Below, one piece after another: positions 7,668-36,557 of a stretch of 44,062 nt of DNA. Numbering within the stretch: position 1 is the stretch's first letter; the number at the start of each line of letters is the position of its first letter. A program made the translations under genes and the position numbers. The notes beneath the pieces were generated by a model, which had not been told where the DNA came from, searched no databases, and saw only the letters and a program-made list of their open reading frames with translations. Origin of the DNA: Gammaproteobacteria bacterium (lineage in GTDB: Bacteria > Pseudomonadota > Gammaproteobacteria > HyVt-429); assembly GCA_022340345.1 (NCBI GenBank), contig JAJDOE010000052.1, forward strand, positions 1 to 44,062. The letters run 5' to 3'.

Positions 7668-8333
7668 TCAGTCCAGCCGCAGGACCGGCCAGCCCCGTTC
7701 CAGGGCGTGGCGTTCCAGCGGCGGGTCCGGATTCACCGCCACCGGGTGGCCGACCCGCTCCAGCAGCGGAAGGTCGTTGTGGGAATCGCTGTAGAACGTA
7801 CTCGTCGCCAGGGCCGGCTCCGCCGCCAGGCCATGCTCCGCCAGCCACGCCTGCATACGTGTCACTTTTCCCTCCCGGTAGCAGGGAACTCCCTCCACCT
7901 CCCCAGTGAAGCGGCCGTCCCGTTGTTGCGGTTCGGTGGCGATGAGTTCGCCGATGCCGAATTCCGCGGCAATGGGTTCGGTGATAAAGCGGTTGGTGGC
8001 CGTGATGATCACCAGGGTGTCCCCGTCCCGTCGATGCCGCTCCACCAGCTGCCGTGCGGACGGCGTGATGATGGGTCGAATGTGCTCCTTGAGAAAACGA
8101 AGGCGCCAGTCTTCCAGGGTGGCCTGATCGAAGCGGGTCAGCGGCTCGAGTTGGAAACGCAGGAAGGCCAGAATATCCAGTCGACCCGCCAGGTAGTCGG
8201 CGTAGTATCGATCGTGGTCCCGGGCCACCTGAATGGCATCCACCGCTCCCTGGGCGATCAGGAACTGGCCCCATTGATAATCGCTGTCACCGCGCAGTAA
8301 AGTGTTGTCGAGATCAAACAGCGCCAGGGACAA
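7668..8333 (-). CDS. HAD-IB family phosphatase (SerB-like)
   Basis: A 221-residue haloacid-dehalogenase-fold hydrolase. All four motifs are visible: FDLDNTLL at residues 5-12 (nucleophile and acid Asp), a VIITAT Thr motif, a Lys in REGKVTRMQ, and YSDSHNDLPLL with the metal-binding Asp pair. The long insert after motif I is the IB-type cap. Members include phosphoserine phosphatase and related small-molecule phosphatases; the substrate here is not known. It is divergent from rppH, and the same HAD-rppH neighbourhood exists in Pseudomonas, so this placement is conserved. Its stop is one base from the permease start. Confidence 0.88.
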   Translation of the reverse strand: MSLALFDLDNTLLRGDSDYQWGQFLIAQGAVDAIQVARDHDRYYADYLAGRLDILAFLRFQLEPLTRFDQATLEDWRLRFLKEHIRPIITPSARQLVERHRRDGDTLVIITATNRFITEPIAAEFGIGELIATEPQQRDGRFTGEVEGVPCYREGKVTRMQAWLAEHGLAAEPALATSTFYSDSHNDLPLLERVGHPVAVNPDPPLERHALERGWPVLRLD

Positions 8334-16785: not shown

Positions 16786-17301
16786 ATGATGCGAATATTT
16801 CGTCACCCCGCCCCGTTGCTGGTCTTGTTGCTGTTGGCCGGCTGCGCCGGCAGCCTGGCGCCGGGGGCCGGCGCCCGCGCCACCCGCGCCGAATGGCTGG
16901 AGCGGGCCCAGCAGGGCGACCCGCAGGCCCAGTTCGTGGTCGGGCGTTCCTATTGTTGCGGGCGCGGGATCGCCTACAACACCGAGCGGGCCGTGGCCTG
17001 GTATTGCCGGGCCGCGGTACAGGGGCATGCGGAGGCCCAGTTTGAGCTGGCGAAGATCTACGCCAACCGGCTGAAGCTGACTACCCGCCTGCTGTCCGCC
17101 GGCAAGTCCTTTACCGACCGGGAGCGTGCCTATATCTGGTACACGGCGGCCATGGTGGCGGGGCAGGCCGGCGCCGAGGAACATCGCGCGCAGCTGATGG
17201 AGGGGCTGGAACCGGCGGACCTGAGCCGGGCACGGCGTGCCGCGACCCGCTGGCGAACCACCGTGTGTCCACCGATAGAAACGCCACGGAGAGCGGGATG
17301 A
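16786..17301 (+). CDS. Sel1-repeat lipoprotein
   Basis: A 171-residue lipoprotein: signal peptide with lipobox LLLAGC, acylated C20. The mature part has two or three Sel1-like TPR units, the clearest being [36 protein letters not shown] and [16 protein letters not shown] (cited as two adjoining segments), then an [21 protein letters not shown] helix pair. Sel1 repeats mediate protein-protein contacts. Three cysteines in and around the first repeat (CC, C) are unusual. The stop overlaps the next lipoprotein gene by 4 bases (ATGA). The function is unknown, but a role as a periplasmic scaffold for the downstream MCE-like lipoprotein is possible. Confidence 0.85.
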
Positions 17302-18017
17302 AGCGCGGCCTGGCGGTGCTGGGGCTGGTCACGATGCTTGCCGCCTGCGGGCAATTCGGAGCGGTGGAGGCGGAGGTCGTGTTCCCGGGGCCAGTGGACA
17401 CCCGGCCGGGAGCCGCGGTGCTGCTGGAAGGACGCCAGGTGGGTGAGGTGCTGTCGGTGGACGGCAACCGCATCCGGATTCGCGTCAGCGCCAAGGAGCG
17501 GTCGGCGGTTTCTTCGGCAGCGGTGGTGCTGCCGGCCAGCGGCGGCAGCCTGGCATTGCGGAATCCGCCCGCTGCCGGGGATCCGATCCGGGACGGGCAA
17601 CAACTGCGCGGCTTGGCCGGTTCTGAATGGGAACGGCTCGCCCGCGAGTTGACGGAAGCGCTTGGCAGTGCGATCGAAGAATTCAGCACCTCGCTGGATC
17701 AGTACCTGGCCAGCGATGACTGGCGCCAGCGCAAGCAACGAATCCGCGATCAGCTCGGCAGCCTGGGCGAGGAGGCAGACCGCTCCCTGGGCGAGCTTGC
17801 GAACGGTTTCGCGCAATTTCTCGAAGACCTGGAAACCGACAATCGCGAAGACCTGCGCAGGCAACAGCAGCGCATGAAGGCGCTGGCGGCGGAGTTGCGC
17901 GCCGACCTGGACCGCGCCCGCGGTGAGGGGCAGGCCGCGTTGGCGGAGGCCCTGCGAACCTTGCAGAAGGAACTCGCGGAGCTGGAAGAGCAACTGGAGC
18001 GCCCACGGGAGCGTTGA
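17298..18017 (+). CDS. Lipoprotein with short MCE/MlaD-like domain and coiled coil
   Basis: A 239-residue lipoprotein (lipobox MLAAC, C17). ATG 17298 is chosen from the ATGA overlap with the Sel1 gene and the fit of the signal peptide. Residues about 25-80 (TRPGAAVLLEGRQVGEVLSV, then a strand ending in AVVLPA) resemble the core of MCE/MlaD domains, which bind or channel lipids between membranes. Residues about 110-239 are almost entirely charged heptad-like helix, rich in Glu, Arg, Gln and Leu: a long coiled coil. The combination looks like an envelope-spanning or tethering protein. The MCE assignment is by eye and moderate. The downstream kinase gene starts 5 bases after the stop. Confidence 0.72.
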   Translation: MKRGLAVLGLVTMLAACGQFGAVEAEVVFPGPVDTRPGAAVLLEGRQVGEVLSVDGNRIRIRVSAKERSAVSSAAVVLPASGGSLALRNPPAAGDPIRDGQQLRGLAGSEWERLARELTEALGSAIEEFSTSLDQYLASDDWRQRKQRIRDQLGSLGEEADRSLGELANGFAQFLEDLETDNREDLRRQQQRMKALAAELRADLDRARGEGQAALAEALRTLQKELAELEEQLERPRER

Positions 18018-18021
18018 TGTT

Positions 18022-20421
18022 GTGAAGCCGGTGCGCGTCGCCAGCAGATACCATGCCGGCAGGGTAGGACGGGCACTGGCCGCGCTGTTGGTGCTGATGC
18101 CGCTGTCCGCCGTCGCCGCGGACCACACCATCGGCGTGCTCGCCTTCCGGGGCCATGAAGCGGCACTGCGCATGTGGACCCCCACAGCCGAGTACCTCAA
18201 TCTGATCATCCCCGGCGAGCGTTTTTCCATCCGCACGCTCGACCTCCCGGCCATGGAGGCCGCGGTGAGCGCCGGCACGGTGGAGTTCATCCTGACCAAT
18301 CCGGGCAACTATGTGGTGCTGGAGGCCCGCTACGGAGTGTCCCGCATCGCCACGCTGAAGAACCAGCGCCAGCAGGATCCCTACACCCGCTTCGGTGCCG
18401 TTATCTTCACCCGTGCAGACCGGGAAGACATCAAGCAGATCTCCGACTTGCGCGGACACAGTTTCATGGCCGTCAGCAAAAGTGCCTTCGGGGGTTTCCA
18501 GATGGCATGGCGGGAGTTGCGGGATCACGGCCTGGATCCGTTCTCCGACCTTTCACGCCTGGAATTCGCGGGTTTTCCGCAGGACCGTATTGTTATGGCG
18601 GTGCGCAACGGCCAGGTGGATGCGGGTACCGTGCGCACCGACGTTATTGAGCGAATGGCCCAGGCGGGGCGCGTGAAGGTGAAGGACTTCCGCATCCTTG
18701 GCCCGCACGCCAGCCCCGGATTTCCCTTCGTGCATTCCACCCGGCTGTACCCGGAATGGCCCTTCGCCAAGCTCAGCAGTACTCCCGACCGGCTCGCGGA
18801 ACAGGTGGTGGTGGCGTTGCTGGCGCTGCCCGAGAACAGTCCGGCTGCACTCGCTTCCCGTTCCGCGGGTTGGACCATCCCGCTGGACTACTCGCCGGTG
18901 CACCAGCTGTTACGGGATTTGCGTCTTGGCCCCTACCGGGAGTTGGGTCGGGTGAGTATCGCCGCGCTGGTGCGGGAGTACGGCGCCTGGCTGGCCGCCG
19001 GCGCGGTGGCCTTCCTGTTGCTTGCCTCGCTGACCAGCTACGTGATCAATATGAACCGGCGACTGGCCCAGTCGCGCCTGGAACTGCAACGGGAGGTGGA
19101 CGAACGCGCCGCAGCCCAGACCGCGCTTGCCCGCCATCGGGAGGAGCTGGAGCAACGGGTACGGGACCGAACCCGCGAACTGGAACGCGTAAACCGTGAC
19201 CTCACGGAGGACATCCAGGCACGCCTGCGTGCGGAAAAAGCATTGCGTAGCAGCGAACGCGCCTTGCGCCAGTTGCACGATGCGACAAACCGGCGGGGCG
19301 CCAGCCTGCGCGAACACCTGAATACGATGCTGCGAATCGGTTGCGAGTATTTTCAACTGCGTGCCGGCCTGTTCGTGGACATCCGCGGTGCGGAGCCGGT
19401 GGTCCTGTGCCGATTCGGCGATCCGCTGCTACTATCCCCTCCGGCAAATTTCCTGCGCGCTACCGTCGCCTCCAGCGAACCCCAGGTGGTGCTCGACGGT
19501 GTCGGGCTGGCGCCCGGAACCAACACCGCGTTCGCGGCCGCCGCCCGTGGCGCCAAGGATTTTTTCGGGGTGCTGGTATTCCTGGATGCGGATCAAAGGT
19601 CCGGGCCTTTCACCTCGGTGGACGTGGATATCCTGCAACTCATGACGCAGTGGATCGGCGGGGAAAGCGAGCGCCTGCGGGCGGAAGAGCAGGCCCGCCA
19701 GCACCAGAGTGAACTTGCCCACGTGGCCCGCCTGAGCACCATGGGTGAGATGGCCTCGGGTCTGGCTCATGAACTGAACCAGCCCCTGACCGCGGTAATG
19801 AACTACACCCGCGGCGTTTTGCGACGCCTGTCCGCTTCCGAGGTGGACCCCGCGTTGGTTGATGCCATGGGACGCGCCACCGCGGAGGCGGAGCGCGCCG
19901 CGCAGATCATCCGCCGGCTGCGGGAATTCGTTCGTAAGCGCGAACCCCGTGCGGAGGTTGTGGATCTCAACGACACGGTGCGTGGCGTTGCCCATATCGC
20001 GGCCCCCGAGGCCGAACGCAACGACGTTCGGGTGCAACTGGAGTTGGAAGACGAGCTTCCCCCGGTGCTGGGGGACCGTATCCAGCTCGAGCAGGTGCTG
20101 CTCAACCTGACCCGCAATGCGGTCGAGGCGATGGCGGGTGGCGACACCCGCAGCCTGCTGATCCGAAGCAGCCAACGTGGCGAACGGGTACGGGTCGAGG
20201 TTCTGGATTCCGGTCGCGGTGTGCCGGACGAGGACCGGGAACGCTTATTCGACCCGTTTTTCAGCACCAAGCCCGAGGGAATGGGGATGGGCCTGTCCAT
20301 CAGCCGCAGCATCATCGAGGCCCATGGTGGCACGCTGGCGGTGGAGCTCACGCCGGACAGCGGTAGCCGCTTTTATTTTGACTTGCCGGCTCATGGCGAG
20401 GCCAGGCAGGGGGTGGCATGA
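18022..20421 (+). CDS. TtrS-like sensor histidine kinase with PhnD-type binding domain
   Basis: A 799-residue kinase starting at GTG 18022, with GGGAG about 11 bases upstream. Order: signal peptide (1-32), a periplasmic PhnD/TtrS-type binding domain (about 34-310; GVLAFRGHEAALRMWTPTAE, FILTNPGNYVVLEARYGVSR), a membrane helix (321-344), a coiled coil (350-425), a GAF-like domain (about 428-550), then HisKA with H583 in LAHELNQPLT and an HATPase domain with LLNLTRNAVEAM, DSGRGVPDE and GMGMGLSIS. Salmonella TtrS with this sensor type detects tetrathionate; relatives sense thiosulfate. The neighbouring SulP and persulfide dioxygenase genes fit a sulfur-compound signal, which remains inference. 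Its stop overlaps the response regulator by 4 bases. Confidence 0.92.
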   Translation: MKPVRVASRYHAGRVGRALAALLVLMPLSAVAADHTIGVLAFRGHEAALRMWTPTAEYLNLIIPGERFSIRTLDLPAMEAAVSAGTVEFILTNPGNYVVLEARYGVSRIATLKNQRQQDPYTRFGAVIFTRADREDIKQISDLRGHSFMAVSKSAFGGFQMAWRELRDHGLDPFSDLSRLEFAGFPQDRIVMAVRNGQVDAGTVRTDVIERMAQAGRVKVKDFRILGPHASPGFPFVHSTRLYPEWPFAKLSSTPDRLAEQVVVALLALPENSPAALASRSAGWTIPLDYSPVHQLLRDLRLGPYRELGRVSIAALVREYGAWLAAGAVAFLLLASLTSYVINMNRRLAQSRLELQREVDERAAAQTALARHREELEQRVRDRTRELERVNRDLTEDIQARLRAEKALRSSERALRQLHDATNRRGASLREHLNTMLRIGCEYFQLRAGLFVDIRGAEPVVLCRFGDPLLLSPPANFLRATVASSEPQVVLDGVGLAPGTNTAFAAAARGAKDFFGVLVFLDADQRSGPFTSVDVDILQLMTQWIGGESERLRAEEQARQHQSELAHVARLSTMGEMASGLAHELNQPLTAVMNYTRGVLRRLSASEVDPALVDAMGRATAEAERAAQIIRRLREFVRKREPRAEVVDLNDTVRGVAHIAAPEAERNDVRVQLELEDELPPVLGDRIQLEQVLLNLTRNAVEAMAGGDTRSLLIRSSQRGERVRVEVLDSGRGVPDEDRERLFDPFFSTKPEGMGMGLSISRSIIEAHGGTLAVELTPDSGSRFYFDLPAHGEARQGVA

Positions 20422-21023
20422 ACGACCCGCCGGGCACGGTGTATATCGTTGACGACGATGAGGCGGTACGCACGTCTCTGAGCTGGCTGGTGGATTCCGC
20501 GGGCCTGCCGGCGCTCACTTTTGCCAGCGCCACGGAGTTCCTCGATGCGTGGGACGGCGCCAGTCACGGTTGCCTGGTGCTGGATGTGCGCATGCCGGGT
20601 ATGAGCGGACTGGAACTGCAGCAGCGGCTGCACGAAGCAGGCTCTCACCTGCCGGTGGTCATCGTTACCGGCCACGCGGATGTGCCGATGGCGATTCGCG
20701 CCCTGAAGGCGGGTGTACGGGATTTCATCGAAAAGCCCTACGACGATGAGGAGTTGCTGGAGCGGATCCACGATGCCATGGCGCACGCCGCGGCGGACCA
20801 GGAGGCCCAGGCCAGGCAACAGGACCTCAGCCGCCGTTTCGAGACCCTTACCGCACGCGAACGGGAGGTGCTGGACTGCGTAGTGGCCGGGCTTTCCAAC
20901 AAGCAGATCGCCGACCAACTGGGGCTGAGCATCAAGACCGTGGAGGTCCACCGTTCCCGGGTAATGAACAAAATGGCTGCCCATTCCCTGGCGGAGCTGG
21001 TGCGCCTGGCGATGGCGCTTTGA
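20418..21023 (+). CDS. FixJ/TtrR-like response regulator
   Basis: A 201-residue two-domain regulator. The receiver domain (about 1-120) has the acidic pocket D12-D14, phosphoacceptor D56 in VLDVRMPG, a Thr switch residue in VTGHADVP, and K in FIEKPYDD. The C-terminal LuxR-type helix-turn-helix (about 140-200) reads LTAREREVLDCVVAGLSNKQIA...IKTVEVHRSRVMNKM, the FixJ/NarL class. The ATGA overlap with the kinase gene makes it the cognate partner. Likely targets are the nearby sulfur genes, but no operator was identified. Confidence 0.95.
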   Translation: MNDPPGTVYIVDDDEAVRTSLSWLVDSAGLPALTFASATEFLDAWDGASHGCLVLDVRMPGMSGLELQQRLHEAGSHLPVVIVTGHADVPMAIRALKAGVRDFIEKPYDDEELLERIHDAMAHAAADQEAQARQQDLSRRFETLTAREREVLDCVVAGLSNKQIADQLGLSIKTVEVHRSRVMNKMAAHSLAELVRLAMAL

Positions 21024-21033
21024 TCCGCGGTAA

Positions 21034-21056
21034 CTGCCGCTGGGGTCAACCGGCAG
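21034..21056. terminator. Weak hairpin between convergent genes
   Basis: A 6-bp CTGCCG/CGGCAG stem with an 11-base loop lies in the 39-base gap between the response regulator and the persulfide dioxygenase gene. There is no T-tract, so terminator function is doubtful. Confidence 0.3.
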
Positions 21057-21062
21057 CGCGCT

Positions 21063-22073
21063 TCAGGCCTCGCTTTGCCAGTCGAGCATGCCGCCGCGGA
21101 GGTTGTAGACCTCGTCAAAACCCAGCGCCGTGAGCATGGCGGCAGCGGTGGTGCTGCGCACTCCCGACCGGCAAATCAGGATCCACGGCCGCTGCTTGTC
21201 CAGGTCGCTGGCGGCCTGCACCAGTTCCTTCAGGGGCACCAGCCGGGCGCCCTCGATGTGCCCCAGTTCGCCGTTGAATTCCTCCGCCTCGCGAACATCG
21301 ATCAGTCCGGCCCCGGCCTGGAGCCGCTCCCGCACCTGGGCGGGTCGCAGTTGCTGCACGTCGCTGAGTTGCGACAGGGACGGAAAGGGCATTTTTTCGT
21401 CATCGATGGCCGACTGGTTCGGTTGCAGCACTTCCTGAATCTTGTCCGGTAGCGGGAACTCGATGCTGTCCATCAGCGCGACGTACTCGTCGCGAGTTTT
21501 GCCGGCGACCCGCGGGTTGTGTTGCTTTTCCTGGCCGATGGTGGACTGGGTATTGCCCCGGTAATCATGTCCCGGCAGTACCACGGTGTCGTCGGGAAGG
21601 ACGAATAACTTGCCGGTAATCGCGTCGTACTGGTCCCCGGCGTCACCGCCGGCGAAATCCGCACGCCCGGTTCCGTGGATCAGCAGCACGTCTCCGGTGA
21701 AAACGTAGCCGTGTCCATACAGGCTGATGCTGTCCGGGGTGTGTCCCGGCGTATACAGGACGGTGAATTTCAGCTTGCCCGCGGCTAGCTGTTCTCCGTC
21801 TTTCACGTGACGGCCGACGATCGGTGTCGGCGCTCGTTCGTGCATGACGATCGTGGCGCCGGTGAGCGCATGCATCAGCGCCGTGCCGGAGGGGTGATCT
21901 GCATGGGTATGGGTATCCACCAACCACTCCAGGGTCAGGCCACGATAGGCCAGCATCGCGAGGTACCGGTCGGCGTTGCCGGCGACCGGGTCGATGAGCA
22001 TGGCGCTACCGGTGTCGGGGCAGGACACCAGATAGGTTTTGCATTTTCCCTGGTTGAGTTCAATCGGTTTCAT
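21063..22073 (-). CDS. Persulfide dioxygenase-rhodanese fusion (ETHE1/PRF-like)
   Basis: A 336-residue two-domain enzyme. The N-terminal metallo-beta-lactamase fold (about 1-230) has THTHADH, a His in YTPGHTPDS, FTGDVLLIHGTGRADF and LPGHDY. These are the iron ligands and the GTGRADF motif of ETHE1-type persulfide dioxygenases, which oxidise glutathione persulfide to sulfite. The C-terminal rhodanese domain (about 240-336) keeps its active cysteine in CRSGVRSTT and moves sulfane sulfur. Such fusions (PRF, CstB) couple the two steps. It follows the SulP gene by 27 bases on the same strand, consistent with export or uptake of sulfur oxyanions. The cytoplasmic location is inferred from the lack of a signal peptide. 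Confidence 0.93.
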   Translation of the reverse strand: MKPIELNQGKCKTYLVSCPDTGSAMLIDPVAGNADRYLAMLAYRGLTLEWLVDTHTHADHPSGTALMHALTGATIVMHERAPTPIVGRHVKDGEQLAAGKLKFTVLYTPGHTPDSISLYGHGYVFTGDVLLIHGTGRADFAGGDAGDQYDAITGKLFVLPDDTVVLPGHDYRGNTQSTIGQEKQHNPRVAGKTRDEYVALMDSIEFPLPDKIQEVLQPNQSAIDDEKMPFPSLSQLSDVQQLRPAQVRERLQAGAGLIDVREAEEFNGELGHIEGARLVPLKELVQAASDLDKQRPWILICRSGVRSTTAAAMLTALGFDEVYNLRGGMLDWQSEA

Positions 22074-22100
22074 TTGGCGCTCGTCGCTTTTCGGTGTTGT

Positions 22101-23813
22101 CTATACGCAGTCCAGGGCTCGCATTGCCTCGTCGGTACTGAGAAATACGCGGCCCGGTTTCAGGACTTCCAGAAAGTCGGTACGTTGCAGGCGGTCTTCC
22201 ACCGGACCCTTGACCTCCGCCAGGTGCAGCGTGATGCCGGCATCCTGCAATTCCTCGCGAAGTTTGTACAGCGTCTCCAGGCCACTACTGTCGATCAGGT
22301 TCACCGCGCTGCAAATCAGCACGATGTGCTCCAGCTCTTTGCTGTTGGCCGCCAGGCCCAGCAGGGTTTCTTCCAGTACCCGGGCATTCGCGAAATGCAA
22401 GCTCTCGTCAATCCGCACCGCCGCTACCTGGGGGCAGGTACGCACCTGGTGGCGTTTCACATTGCGGAAATGTTCGCTGTCGCCTACCCGGCCGACGATG
22501 GCGACATGGGGGCGGCTCGCCCGCCACAACAGCAGTAGCAGGGACGAGCCGATACCGGTGAGGATGCCGACTTCCACTCCCCAGCTAAGGACCGCAAGAA
22601 AAGTCACCAGTAGTGCCGCGGCGTCCGCTTTGTTGTATCGCCACGCGTTTCTCAGCGGCGCCACGTCCACCAGCCGCGCCACCGCCACCACGATGATCCC
22701 CGCCAGAACGGCCTTGGGCAGGAAGAAAAACAATGGCGTCAGAGCCAGCAGCGCAATCGCTACCAGTACCGCGGTGACCATCGCGGCCAGTTGGGTGTTG
22801 GCCCCGGCGGTAAAGTTCACCACCGATCGGCTGAAGCCGCCGGTTACCGGGTAGCCGCCGGTCAAGGCGGCGGCAATGTTGGCGGCGCCCAGGCCCACCA
22901 GTTCCCGGTCGGCATCCACAATTTCGCGGCGCTTGGAGGCCAGTGCCTTGGCGACGGAGACACTCTCCAGGAAACCCACCAGCGCAATGAGTGCGGCGGA
23001 GGTCAGCAATTGCACGACCATGCCCCGATCCAGGCCTGGCCAGGCAAACTCCGGCAGGCCGGCAGGAATCTCGCCGATGATCGCTACGGCGTGGCTGCGG
23101 TCCAGGCCGAACGCGGCCACCAGCCCGGTAAACAACACCACCGCGAACAGCGGGCCGGAGCGCCCCAGCACCTGGCCCGCCTGCGAACCGGGGTCGGCGA
23201 CAAATCGGGCCAGGCGACCGGCGCTCAGCAGCAGGCCGATGCTGCCCAGGCCGATGACCAGGGTTACCGGGTTGATAGAGGCGAGCTGGCCGAACACGGC
23301 CACGATCACGTCCAGGAACTGGTGTGTTTGCGGAAGCGAAATGCCCAGCAGGTGCTTGAGCTGGCTGAATCCGATCACCAGCGCGGCGGCGCTGGTAAAC
23401 CCGGAAATTACCGGGTGCGACATGAAATTGACGATGAATCCCAGGCGAGCCAGGCCCATGACCAGCAGCATCAGCCCGGAAAGCAACGCCAGCAGCAACG
23501 CTGCCGAAAGGTAGGCCGCACTTCCGGGGGCGGCGATTTCGCCGGCGGCGGCCGCTACCATCAGCGAGATGATGGCTACCGGTCCCACCGCCAGGGTGCG
23601 GCTGCTGCCAAACAGGGCGTAGGCGAGCAGCGGCAGCACACTGGCGTACAGCCCCACCTGGGCGGGCAGGCCGGCGAGCAGGGCATAGGCCATGCCCTGG
23701 GGCACCAGCATGATGGCGACCACCAGGCCGGCCACCACGTCGCCCGGCAAGTCCCCCCGCTGGTAGTTCGCGAGCCAGTCCCGGGCCGGAAGCAGTCGCA
23801 ATATCGGATTCAT
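22101..23813 (-). CDS. SulP-family anion permease with STAS domain
   Basis: A 570-residue inner-membrane transporter. ATG 23813 gives MNPILRLLPARDWLANYQRGD, the usual SulP start; the frame is open further upstream but that part is proline-rich shadow. The membrane domain (about 10-420) has GDVVAGLVVAIMLVPQGMAYALLAGLP, the SulP signature, and NIAAALTGGYPVTGGFSRS. The cytoplasmic STAS domain (about 440-555) contains HIVLICSAVNLIDSSGLETL. Family members carry sulfate, bicarbonate or other anions; the adjoining persulfide dioxygenase favours sulfate or sulfite, without proof. It is the first gene of a two-gene operon. Confidence 0.93.
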   Translation of the reverse strand: MNPILRLLPARDWLANYQRGDLPGDVVAGLVVAIMLVPQGMAYALLAGLPAQVGLYASVLPLLAYALFGSSRTLAVGPVAIISLMVAAAAGEIAAPGSAAYLSAALLLALLSGLMLLVMGLARLGFIVNFMSHPVISGFTSAAALVIGFSQLKHLLGISLPQTHQFLDVIVAVFGQLASINPVTLVIGLGSIGLLLSAGRLARFVADPGSQAGQVLGRSGPLFAVVLFTGLVAAFGLDRSHAVAIIGEIPAGLPEFAWPGLDRGMVVQLLTSAALIALVGFLESVSVAKALASKRREIVDADRELVGLGAANIAAALTGGYPVTGGFSRSVVNFTAGANTQLAAMVTAVLVAIALLALTPLFFFLPKAVLAGIIVVAVARLVDVAPLRNAWRYNKADAAALLVTFLAVLSWGVEVGILTGIGSSLLLLLWRASRPHVAIVGRVGDSEHFRNVKRHQVRTCPQVAAVRIDESLHFANARVLEETLLGLAANSKELEHIVLICSAVNLIDSSGLETLYKLREELQDAGITLHLAEVKGPVEDRLQRTDFLEVLKPGRVFLSTDEAMRALDCV

Positions 23814-24130
23814 GCCTGGGTCCTCGGGGCGCCATTCGGGCGCCACAGTTGGCCCGTGCCCGGCGGTTTTTGCAAGCTCCAACGGTGGTAATACACATTC
23901 CGGTGGGGTTATGATTTCACGCGCCCCGCGGACCACGCGGATATCGATGGTGGAAAATCGGGGGCGGGCCGGACCATCGGGCCGACGCTGCGGGTAGTGA
24001 ACGGGGTCGCGGGGGAAAACGCGGACCGCGTGCCGCGGGCAGGGAAAAAGAAGACCGAAAAGAATACCAATAAAGGCCGCGCGCCCTGGGGGGGGTGGTG
24101 GCGGCAAGGACCTCTGACACGGAGAGTGGA
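23814..24130. other. 317-base divergent intergenic region with G8 tract
   Basis: The gap lies between the divergent SulP and ACT/PilZ-like genes and should hold both promoters, but I see no convincing -35/-10 pair on either strand (the best is a lone TAATAC at 23889). It holds a run of eight G at 24088-24095, 35 bases before the ATG at 24131, and a ribosome binding site GGAG just before that ATG. No gene is supported here. Confidence 0.6.
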
Positions 24131-25702
24131 ATGGATGCCAGTATCGCCGCCCGGCTGGATGGGAGGCCGGGGACTCTGGCTCGTTTGATGGTTGCGCTCC
24201 GCCGCCACGGTGTCGGTGTCGGACCCTATTCGCTGGCGGAGTCGGATGGTCAGCGCACGGTCCGCATCCCGCTCAATGGCTCGTTGCCGCTATCCGACGA
24301 GCTTCACCGCCAGCTGGCCGGGCTTCCCGGAATCCTCGAACTGAGCGTGCCCGGCTTCGAGCCGGATCGCCTGGCAAACCCCGAACGCCTCGAGCAGGCG
24401 ATCAGCACACTGGAAGAAGAACTCGCCGCGCCGCCCAGTCGTGCGCGACTGGATGCTGCCGGGGAATCCCTGGCCAGCATCGTTACGCGACTGGCGGACG
24501 CTGACGCGGACTGGGATCCGCCACTGACCCCTGCCGTGCTGGGGCGTGCAACGCGAGTCGCCGGATTGGCGCGCCATCTCTGCAGCGCCTGGCAGAAACT
24601 GGCGGAGCTTGGCGAAATCGATGCGCCCGGTGCGCGCAGCGCGGGCCTTGCCAGCCTGCACCAGGAGTTGCGAATCGCGCAGCTGAGTTGCCAGCCGGCC
24701 GCGGCGGGTCTCTGGTCTGCTGCCAACGCCCTGTTCCGCGATGGGGTGAGATCGCCGGATGGAGATCGGGCTGCCCTGCGCCAGAGTTACAAGGAAATCC
24801 TGCTGACCGGCCTGTTGCGCTGCGACTACTTCTCCGCTTTCTCCCAGCGCTGTATCCACACCGCCATGCCACAGTTGGCGGCCGTTGCGCGCCTGCGCCA
24901 CGCGGCGGGAAAAATACCGGGCACCGGGCGCTTCGCCGTGTGCCTCGGCGAAGACCATGCGCCACTGCGCTGGAACGGTCAACCGGACATCGAGCTGATC
25001 CTCGATACCCGACCGCTGCTGGCTCGCCTGAAAACCGAAGACGAGCAACGGGAGGCCGGAGCCGCCGGCGAGCTGTTTCCCGGGGTGCCCGTGGCCCAGG
25101 CCCGTTTTCTCGCCCGGGGCCTGATGCGTCAGTTGGGCGACTTTCGCGAACGCGCCTGGCCGCGGGAAAACACCGAGCGCCCGTTCCAGGTGTTGCATGG
25201 CTTCAGCGCCGTGGTCGACATGCTCTCGGGGCGGCCTACTCCGAAACCGCAGGAGTGGGTCAGCGTGGACGAGAGCCTGTTTGGCCTGCAGCTGTCCGGT
25301 CCCTGCGTGGATCTGGACGGCCCGGTGCGGGCCGGCGAGTTGCTGCTGCTGCGCCCGGCGGACGGCGACGATTCCTGGATCCTGGGCGTGACCCGCTGGG
25401 CGCGTGCGGACCCGGAGCGTATTCACGTCGGCGTGTTCAAGCTCGGTACCGGGGCGCGCGCGATGCAGGGACGACCGGCACAGGCGAACGGGGTGACCGG
25501 GTTCGAGTTCGCACTGCTGCCGCCGCTGCCCGGTGTTGGCCGCGGAGCCCGGTGCGTGGTGCCCGCCGGGATATACACACCGCCCGGAATCCTCGCGGAA
25601 CTGGATGGCGAGGAACACCTGCTGGTGGCCCGGGAGGCGCCGCGGGGCAACCACCTGGTGGAGTGGTTCGAGGTGGCCGGGTCGCCGGTTTCCTCGGCCT
25701 GA
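24131..25702 (+). CDS. Unknown protein with ACT-like N-terminus and PilZ-like C-terminus
   Basis: A 523-residue soluble protein. ATG 24131 has a GGAG ribosome binding site; a GTG at 24095, next to the G8 tract, is an alternative. Residues about 5-75 (ARLDGRPGTLARLMVALRRHGV...) have an ACT-domain look (DGRPG turn, then a regulatory helix). The helical middle (about 80-340) is not recognised. Near residue 380 the segment SVDESLFGLQLSG fits the D-x-S-x-x-G part of a PilZ motif, with VRAGELLLLRP and ILGVTRWAR strands after it. An RAWPR stretch (RxxxR) lies about 35 residues before, further than usual. It may bind cyclic di-GMP, but this is a hypothesis from motif shape only. There is no signal peptide. 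Confidence 0.7.
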   Translation: MDASIAARLDGRPGTLARLMVALRRHGVGVGPYSLAESDGQRTVRIPLNGSLPLSDELHRQLAGLPGILELSVPGFEPDRLANPERLEQAISTLEEELAAPPSRARLDAAGESLASIVTRLADADADWDPPLTPAVLGRATRVAGLARHLCSAWQKLAELGEIDAPGARSAGLASLHQELRIAQLSCQPAAAGLWSAANALFRDGVRSPDGDRAALRQSYKEILLTGLLRCDYFSAFSQRCIHTAMPQLAAVARLRHAAGKIPGTGRFAVCLGEDHAPLRWNGQPDIELILDTRPLLARLKTEDEQREAGAAGELFPGVPVAQARFLARGLMRQLGDFRERAWPRENTERPFQVLHGFSAVVDMLSGRPTPKPQEWVSVDESLFGLQLSGPCVDLDGPVRAGELLLLRPADGDDSWILGVTRWARADPERIHVGVFKLGTGARAMQGRPAQANGVTGFEFALLPPLPGVGRGARCVVPAGIYTPPGILAELDGEEHLLVAREAPRGNHLVEWFEVAGSPVSSA

Positions 25703-36172: not shown

Positions 36173-36178
36173 CCGCCG

Positions 36179-36524
36179 GGGTCGGCCGGACAGTCGCCGC
36201 CGCCTTCGGGTGGGGGAGGAAAGTCCGGGCTCCACAGGGCAGGGTGCCAGGTAACGCCTGGGCGGTGTAAACCGACGGAAAGTGCCGCAGAAAACATACC
36301 GCCTACGTCTCCTCCGGGAGGCCGGTAAGGGTGAAATGGTGCGGTAAGAGCGCACCGCGCCCGTGGTAACACGGGTGGCAGGGTAAACCCCACCCGGAGC
36401 AAGACCGAATAGGGACCCGATGGCGTGGCCCGCGCCGGGTCCGGGTAGGTCGCTGGAGGCCGGTGGTGACGCCGGCCCTAGATGAATGGCTGTCCTCGAC
36501 AGAACCCGGCTTACAGGCCGACCC
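36179..36524 (+). ncRNA. rnpB: RNase P RNA (class A)
   Basis: About 346 nucleotides of the catalytic RNA that trims tRNA 5' leaders. Helix P1 pairs 36179-36187 (GGGTCGGCC) with 36516-36524 (GGCCGACCC), fixing both ends. Universally conserved blocks are present in order: GAGGAAAGTCCGGGCTCC with ACAGGGCAG (CR-I), GCCAGGTAACGCCTGGG, AAGGGTGAAA-type and GGTAAGAGCGCACC (CR-II/III), CACCCGGAGCAAGACC-like, and the 3' GATGAATGGCTGTCC...ACAGAACCCGGCTTA (CR-IV/V). The form is the ancestral type A of proteobacteria. It has its own promoter and lies between rsmI and the dcw cluster. Confidence 0.97.
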
Positions 36525-36557
36525 CTATCTCTTTGATTTAGCTGTTTTTTCTGTTTC

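Follow-up and report, generated by a model that had tools for sequence, protein, structure and literature searches.

Sensor kinases with a PhnD-type periplasmic domain have already been described as a group and used to find a thiosulfate sensor; 838 such proteins were listed, and among 154 non-redundant ones 131 lay beside a regulator, 13 beside thiosulfate genes and 18 beside tetrathionate genes (PMC5408782). The closest described systems are TtrSR of tetrathionate respiration in Salmonella and Vibrio, where the TtrR box is GTGG-N4-CCAC (PMC11293645), and the thiosulfate sensor ThsSR of Shewanella halifaxensis, where the ThsR element is TATGTGGTTTACCACAAT (PMC5408782). Sensing of thiosulfate and related compounds by sulfur oxidisers has been called little known (PMC10451225). 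The locus considered here occupies positions 18022-23813 of a 44,062-nt window (the whole stretch of DNA analysed; assembly GCA_022340345.1, contig JAJDOE010000052.1). It encodes a PhnD-type sensor histidine kinase and a FixJ/TtrR-like response regulator, converging on genes for a SulP-family permease and a persulfide dioxygenase (PDO)-rhodanese fusion. A first-pass annotation made from the sequence had named these four genes, and Pfam and NCBIfam models recover every one of them at the same positions. Judging by sequence comparison, the kinase and regulator are likely to form a system of the TtrSR/ThsSR kind which senses a reduced sulfur oxyanion and drives distant genes for periplasmic sulfur carriers, the adjoining SulP-PDO genes probably not being a direct target.

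Sensor kinase and its place in the family

The kinase matches Pfam Phosphonate-bd at residues 37-275 (E 1.2e-37), as well as HisKA and HATPase_c. Its best NCBIfam model is TtrS (NF040750), at 356 bits against a cut-off of 750. Missing this cut-off is weak evidence, since ttr-type reference sensors also stay under it (360-563 bits), and the score alone does not separate the two kinds because the ttr-linked reference L144 reaches only 359.8. As a statement of sequence resemblance, the name TtrS-like is right. The best model of the regulator is FixJ (NCBIfam, 256.6 bits, passing the cut-off of 255); its score against TtrR is 182.7 bits, below the cut-off of 290. The recognition-helix region is like that of relatives.

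FixL carries a haem PAS domain. The Pfam scan gave no PAS match in the partner kinase studied here, which has PhnD and GAF domains instead. The middle domain of the window kinase has no Pfam match of its own at E<=0.01; at the same threshold GAF (PF01590) was matched in 28 of 30 aligned kinases of this architecture. The kinase family profile gave weak matches to solved GAF proteins in the PDB (best E 2.7e-5). A fold search with the whole kinase was led by kinase-domain matches, and the GAF stretch was therefore folded separately. The resulting AlphaFold2 model (pLDDT 92) has solved GAF domains among its best Foldseek matches, including 3cit and 2vzw, the haem-bound GAF of DosT. The middle domain, as modelled, is thus a GAF fold, which bears out the extra GAF-like domain of the first-pass annotation.

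A scan of genome contigs left 80 loci; in the relatives sample, 26 of 95 genomes, the window's own included, matched at E<=1e-60. Sensors were sorted by alignment into a GAF class (35 loci and the window), sensors with no insert, sensors with an insert of ~95-100 residues, hybrids and ttr-type references. Loci L137-L144 served as these references because the NCBIfam TtrS model gave nothing over cut-off in a class sample of 229 genomes and an order sample of 54; TtrA or TtrC lies near five of the eight, the assignment of neighbour families having been checked for L137 and L144. In a quick maximum-likelihood tree (LG+G4) of 87 sensors, built on PhnD and kinase columns only, the eight references form one starred branch (SH-aLRT 99) with the window outside it. 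Another starred set, of 34 rows, includes the window, and GAF-class sensors account for 31 of those rows. Mean identity of its sensor domain is 56% to the GAF class and 54% to the sox/dsrE-linked set, against 37% to the ttr-type set, and at each of seven sensor positions the first two sets have the same fixed residue and the third set is fixed for another. The comparison with TtrS and ThsS suggested earlier is thereby realised in part: the window sensor groups with sulfur-oxidation-linked sensors and apart from ttr-linked ones, in a tree whose references are L137-L144 rather than named ThsS or Salmonella TtrS.

Genes beside the pair in relatives point in the same direction. A Pfam tally of immediate neighbours, with families not preselected, gave SBP_bac_11 as the commonest family of the GAF class (12 of 88 proteins), together with DsrE (7 of 88); among 150 proteins in the other classes the counts were DsrE 11, SoxY 6, SBP_bac_11 5, SoxZ 2 and SoxA/TsdA 2. 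The DsrE-type sulfur carriers concerned are of a secreted type. The zones within 800 bp of the pair, together 152 kb out of a total flank of 1,048 kb (14.5%), contained 22 of 25 profile matches for DsrE, 14 of 17 for SBP_bac_11, 6 of 8 for SoxY and 5 of 8 for SoxB-like proteins. The binomial P values (5e-16, 8e-10, 2e-4 and 2e-3, respectively) overstate the case because the families were picked for recurring beside the pair. SoxZ (0/7) and SoxA (1/4) are seldom so close, being second and third in sox runs. Where GAF-class loci extend 900 bp or more downstream, 21 of 30 have a DsrE, SBP_bac_11, SoxY or SoxB-like neighbour; among loci of other classes, 21 of 68 do. The SoxB-like proteins, metallophosphatase/5'-nucleotidase proteins beside the sensors of L063, L066, L069 and L087, are possibly a distinct periplasmic family; two from L069 score 133.9 and 66.4 bits, far under the SoxB cut-off.

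Operator-like palindrome and predicted targets

A palindrome, AGGG-N4-CCCT, is common to the promoters lying between the regulator gene and the one that follows, and a matrix built on these promoters places a site in 41 of 48 of them. The motif was cross-checked by training a matrix on non-GAF loci (27 loci, 20 sites) and applying it to 19 loci of the GAF class; the palindrome seed pattern had been seen in both groups beforehand. Of the 19 gaps downstream of the regulator, 12 contain a site of >14 bits; the remaining 239,946 bp of these loci contain none. The same motif accompanies DsrE, SoxYZ and SoxB-like neighbours alike. Within 800 bp, literal AGGG-N4-CCC[TC] occurs at 15/35 GAF-class, 18/60 other and 0/8 ttr-type loci, and literal GTGG-N4-CCAC at 1/35, 4/60 and 2/8; the flanks of the ttr-type references contain no AGGG-N4-CCCT-type site. 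The complete genome G083 has the stringent form of the motif twice, in the gap between regulator and SBP gene and inside an open reading frame, with modest scores of 8.9 and 8.0. The layout of the palindrome is that of the TtrR box (PMC11293645) and the ThsR element (PMC5408782), and it is a sister of the former.

In the window's own genome, two pattern searches gave 32 distinct candidate sites, which were ranked by the non-GAF matrix. The top three, on contigs C82, C127 and C3 (Table 1), stand apart from the fourth (16.2 bits, within a coding frame). Ten DsrE-family genes were found in this genome, and only those on C3 and C127 are of the secreted type seen next to relatives' kinase-regulator pairs: compared with two proteins of that type, they are 55-66% identical, and the other DsrE proteins 35% or less, or without a match. 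Both are preceded by an operator-like site. The binding protein on C82 stands alone at the contig end (8510-9367 of L178) and is a possible co-receptor. Only a single kinase matching the PhnD domain turned up in this genome. On contig C155, a run of DsrE-like, TusA-like and SQR-like genes (5894-7881 of L224; the latter two named by eye) follows a weaker, 13.9-bit site and is a possible further target. Another site, of 15.3 bits, lies on contig C21 (1497 of L184) near the start of a 480-aa reading frame with a signal-like start.

SoxY, SoxB and DsrA are present above cut-off, which by gene content makes the organism a sulfur oxidiser. The remark that thiosulfate enzyme genes are missing stands for the window and fails for the genome, where sox genes lie on contig C153. 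No ttr or phs/psr thiosulfate reductase genes were found among the seven window proteins scanned (16786-25699); ttrA was not sought in the remaining genome. The earlier proposal of a sulfur-compound signal is upheld by this gene content, by the dsrE, sox and SoxB-like genes beside relatives' sensors, and by the tree, where the window sensor groups with those relatives' sensors and apart from ttr-linked ones.

In the proposed mechanism, the PhnD-type periplasmic domain would bind a reduced sulfur oxyanion. The best guess for this ligand is thiosulfate or a closely related compound, given the Sox and DsrE association and the ThsSR precedent. The GAF domain would add a second, cytoplasmic input to the kinase, which would phosphorylate the FixJ-like regulator. 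Conservation suggests that the regulator binds AGGG-N4-CCCT palindromes. It would most likely drive the two secreted DsrE genes and the PhnD-type binding protein on other contigs, presumably by activation rather than repression. SulP-PDO would be a separate sulfite-producing and anion-transport unit, probably no direct target. More tentatively, one PhnD-type sensor family (with GAF domain, shorter insert or neither) and its own operator might constitute a widespread two-input sulfur-oxidation switch, targeting, in Gamma- and Alphaproteobacteria alike, periplasmic DsrE carriers, SBP_bac_11 and Sox genes, and here also a soluble PhnD-type binding protein, a possible co-receptor or ligand buffer.

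Several observations weigh against this interpretation. Seven of the 19 GAF-class gaps have no >14-bit site, and the test covered 19 of the 35 GAF-class loci; nine of the 30 GAF-class loci have none of the neighbours named above; the sox operon of the window's own genome has no strong site upstream. Neighbour families and the motif seed pattern were selected after the loci had been viewed, which makes the enrichments post hoc in part. The conserved operator, the short list of predicted targets and the sensor family make directly testable predictions, and secreted DsrE-type proteins of unclear role become tied to a sulfur signal.

The SulP-PDO pair and alternative explanations

The closest solved protein to the PDO is BpPRF (5ve3; E 2.9e-63, residues 8-335). 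The two share domain order and near full-length similarity; the window gene differs in sitting behind a SulP permease gene. The Fe-site motif THTHADH (residues 54-60) and the rhodanese cysteine loop CRSGVR (at 301) are taken here to be catalytic. SulP has a STAS domain and passes TIGR00815 (465 bits, cut-off 380). The SulP stop is 27 bp from the PDO start, and the two are therefore probably one transcript read from SulP.

The first-pass annotation suggested that the regulator may control these adjacent genes, a reading which found no support. The best operator-like scores upstream of window genes with the non-GAF matrix are -2.1 bits (SulP), -13.3 (PDO) and -4.7 (kinase), and a matrix from GAF-class loci reaches only 0.8 in the SulP upstream stretch 23790-24140; the top sites of the genome are on other contigs. 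GTGG-N4-CCAC is likewise missing upstream of SulP, PDO and kinase, a weak control given that the literal box occurs in only 2/8 ttr-type flanks; its three matches in the window are all elsewhere, one within the regulator gene. Operator-like matches in the window occur at 36380 and near 7879, 16536 and 41047; the first was rejected as a target site, as it sits inside an RNase P RNA (Table 1). Nor are SulP and PDO conserved partners of the pair, an idea which was rejected: neither lies within 800 bp of it in any of 103 relative loci, and tblastn against 113 loci gave no SulP match and two weak or partial PDO matches. SulP adjoins PDO, with no kinase or regulator, in 2 of 11 PDO loci of other genomes (1.5-kb flanks). 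Control of SulP-PDO through a different or degenerate site has the adjacency in its favour, as well as a weakly PDO-like gene (32% identity) that one relative, L125, carries ~1.5 kb from the pair. PDO produces sulfite, an output that would suit a sulfur sensor. In view of the missing sites and the data from relatives, such control is distinctly unlikely. Most likely, SulP-PDO oxidises persulfide in the cytoplasm and exports or exchanges the resulting anion without involvement of the pair, and sulfur genes adjoining a sensor pair need not be its targets.

The ligand could also be another oxyanion (molybdate, sulfate, selenate or phosphonate-like), with the SBP_bac_11 neighbours as its binding proteins. 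The prominence of this family in the GAF class fits this idea, and so does one of its proteins, whose nearest named models describe binders of molybdate, thiosulfate and sulfate, though none reaches its cut-off; the motif shared with DsrE, SoxYZ and SoxB-like neighbours speaks for sulfur, and another oxyanion is unlikely. That the sensor is TtrS proper and responds to tetrathionate is highly improbable: TtrS is indeed the best model, and L144 scores hardly higher, but the references branch apart, their sensor domains are much less similar than those of sulfur-oxidation-linked sensors, and their flanks have no AGGG-N4-CCCT-type site. It is very unlikely, too, that the palindrome is the site of a different, global sulfur regulator, its position beside the pair being incidental. 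Its absence from some loci with the pair would agree with this, but its concentration in regulator-downstream gaps and its match in layout to TtrR and ThsR sites argue for the adjacent regulator.

Locus layout and comparison with described systems

The kinase start codon is GTG, judged sensible. Between the stop codons of the regulator and PDO genes lie 39 bp. A lipoprotein-like open reading frame ends 4 bp ahead of the kinase start and may be co-transcribed with it; another reading frame diverges from SulP.

Table 1. Features of the window and top-ranking operator-like sites on other contigs of the same genome
Feature	Position	Strand	Description
Lipoprotein-like open reading frame	17265-18017	+	250 aa; no Pfam/NCBIfam match
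Sensor histidine kinase	18022-20418	+	Signal/transmembrane segment, PhnD-type periplasmic domain (residues 37-275), transmembrane segment, GAF (about residues 420-545), HisKA-HATPase_c
Stretch folded as GAF domain	19255-19677	+	Kinase residues 412-552; AlphaFold2 model, family Pfam matches
FixJ/TtrR-like response regulator	20418-21023	+	Pfam Response_reg (receiver) and GerE (LuxR-type helix-turn-helix)
PDO-rhodanese fusion	21063-22073	-	Pfam Lactamase_B and Rhodanese
SulP-family anion permease	22101-23813	-	Pfam Sulfate_transp and STAS; TIGR00815
SulP upstream region	23814-24130		No operator-like site
Open reading frame divergent from SulP	24137-25699	+	521 aa; no Pfam/NCBIfam match
Bacterial RNase P RNA class A	36178-36529	+	Rfam RF00010, 337.6 bits
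C82 site, 20.9 bits			73 bp before 286-aa PhnD-type binding protein
C127 site, 20.2 bits			93 bp before DsrE lipoprotein-like gene
C3 site, 18.7 bits			127 bp before secreted DsrE gene, followed by fatty-acid-hydroxylase-family and multihaem cytochrome genes

Other regulators of sulfur oxidation are built differently. RsrSR of Acidithiobacillus caldus is also a two-component system and controls thiosulfate/tetrathionate oxidation, but it is an EnvZ-OmpR-type system whose site spans 19 bp (PMC5093147); it was set aside as a counterpart, the protein families being different. SoxR and sHdrR of Hyphomicrobium denitrificans also regulate sulfur oxidation genes, but are ArsR-type one-component repressors sensing sulfane sulfur (PMC10451225). 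The excerpt of a Cupriavidus paper (PMC2864759) contains no sox-FixJ link. In titles and abstract openings of the open-licence literature searched, no earlier description of the GAF architecture, the AGGG-N4-CCCT operator or the dsrE/SBP link was met.

The nearest counterparts remain ThsSR and TtrSR. ThsSR, compared by description, shares the PhnD-type sensor, the FixJ-like operator layout and a sulfur oxyanion as likely ligand; it adjoins a thiosulfate reductase operon, whereas the system described here is linked to dsrE/sox genes. TtrSR shares the PhnD-type sensor kinase, the FixJ-like regulator and a palindrome with a 4-bp spacer. The window system differs from it in the GAF domain, in AGGG-N4-CCCT instead of GTGG-N4-CCAC, in sulfur-oxidation-linked predicted targets and in its separate branch of the sensor tree.

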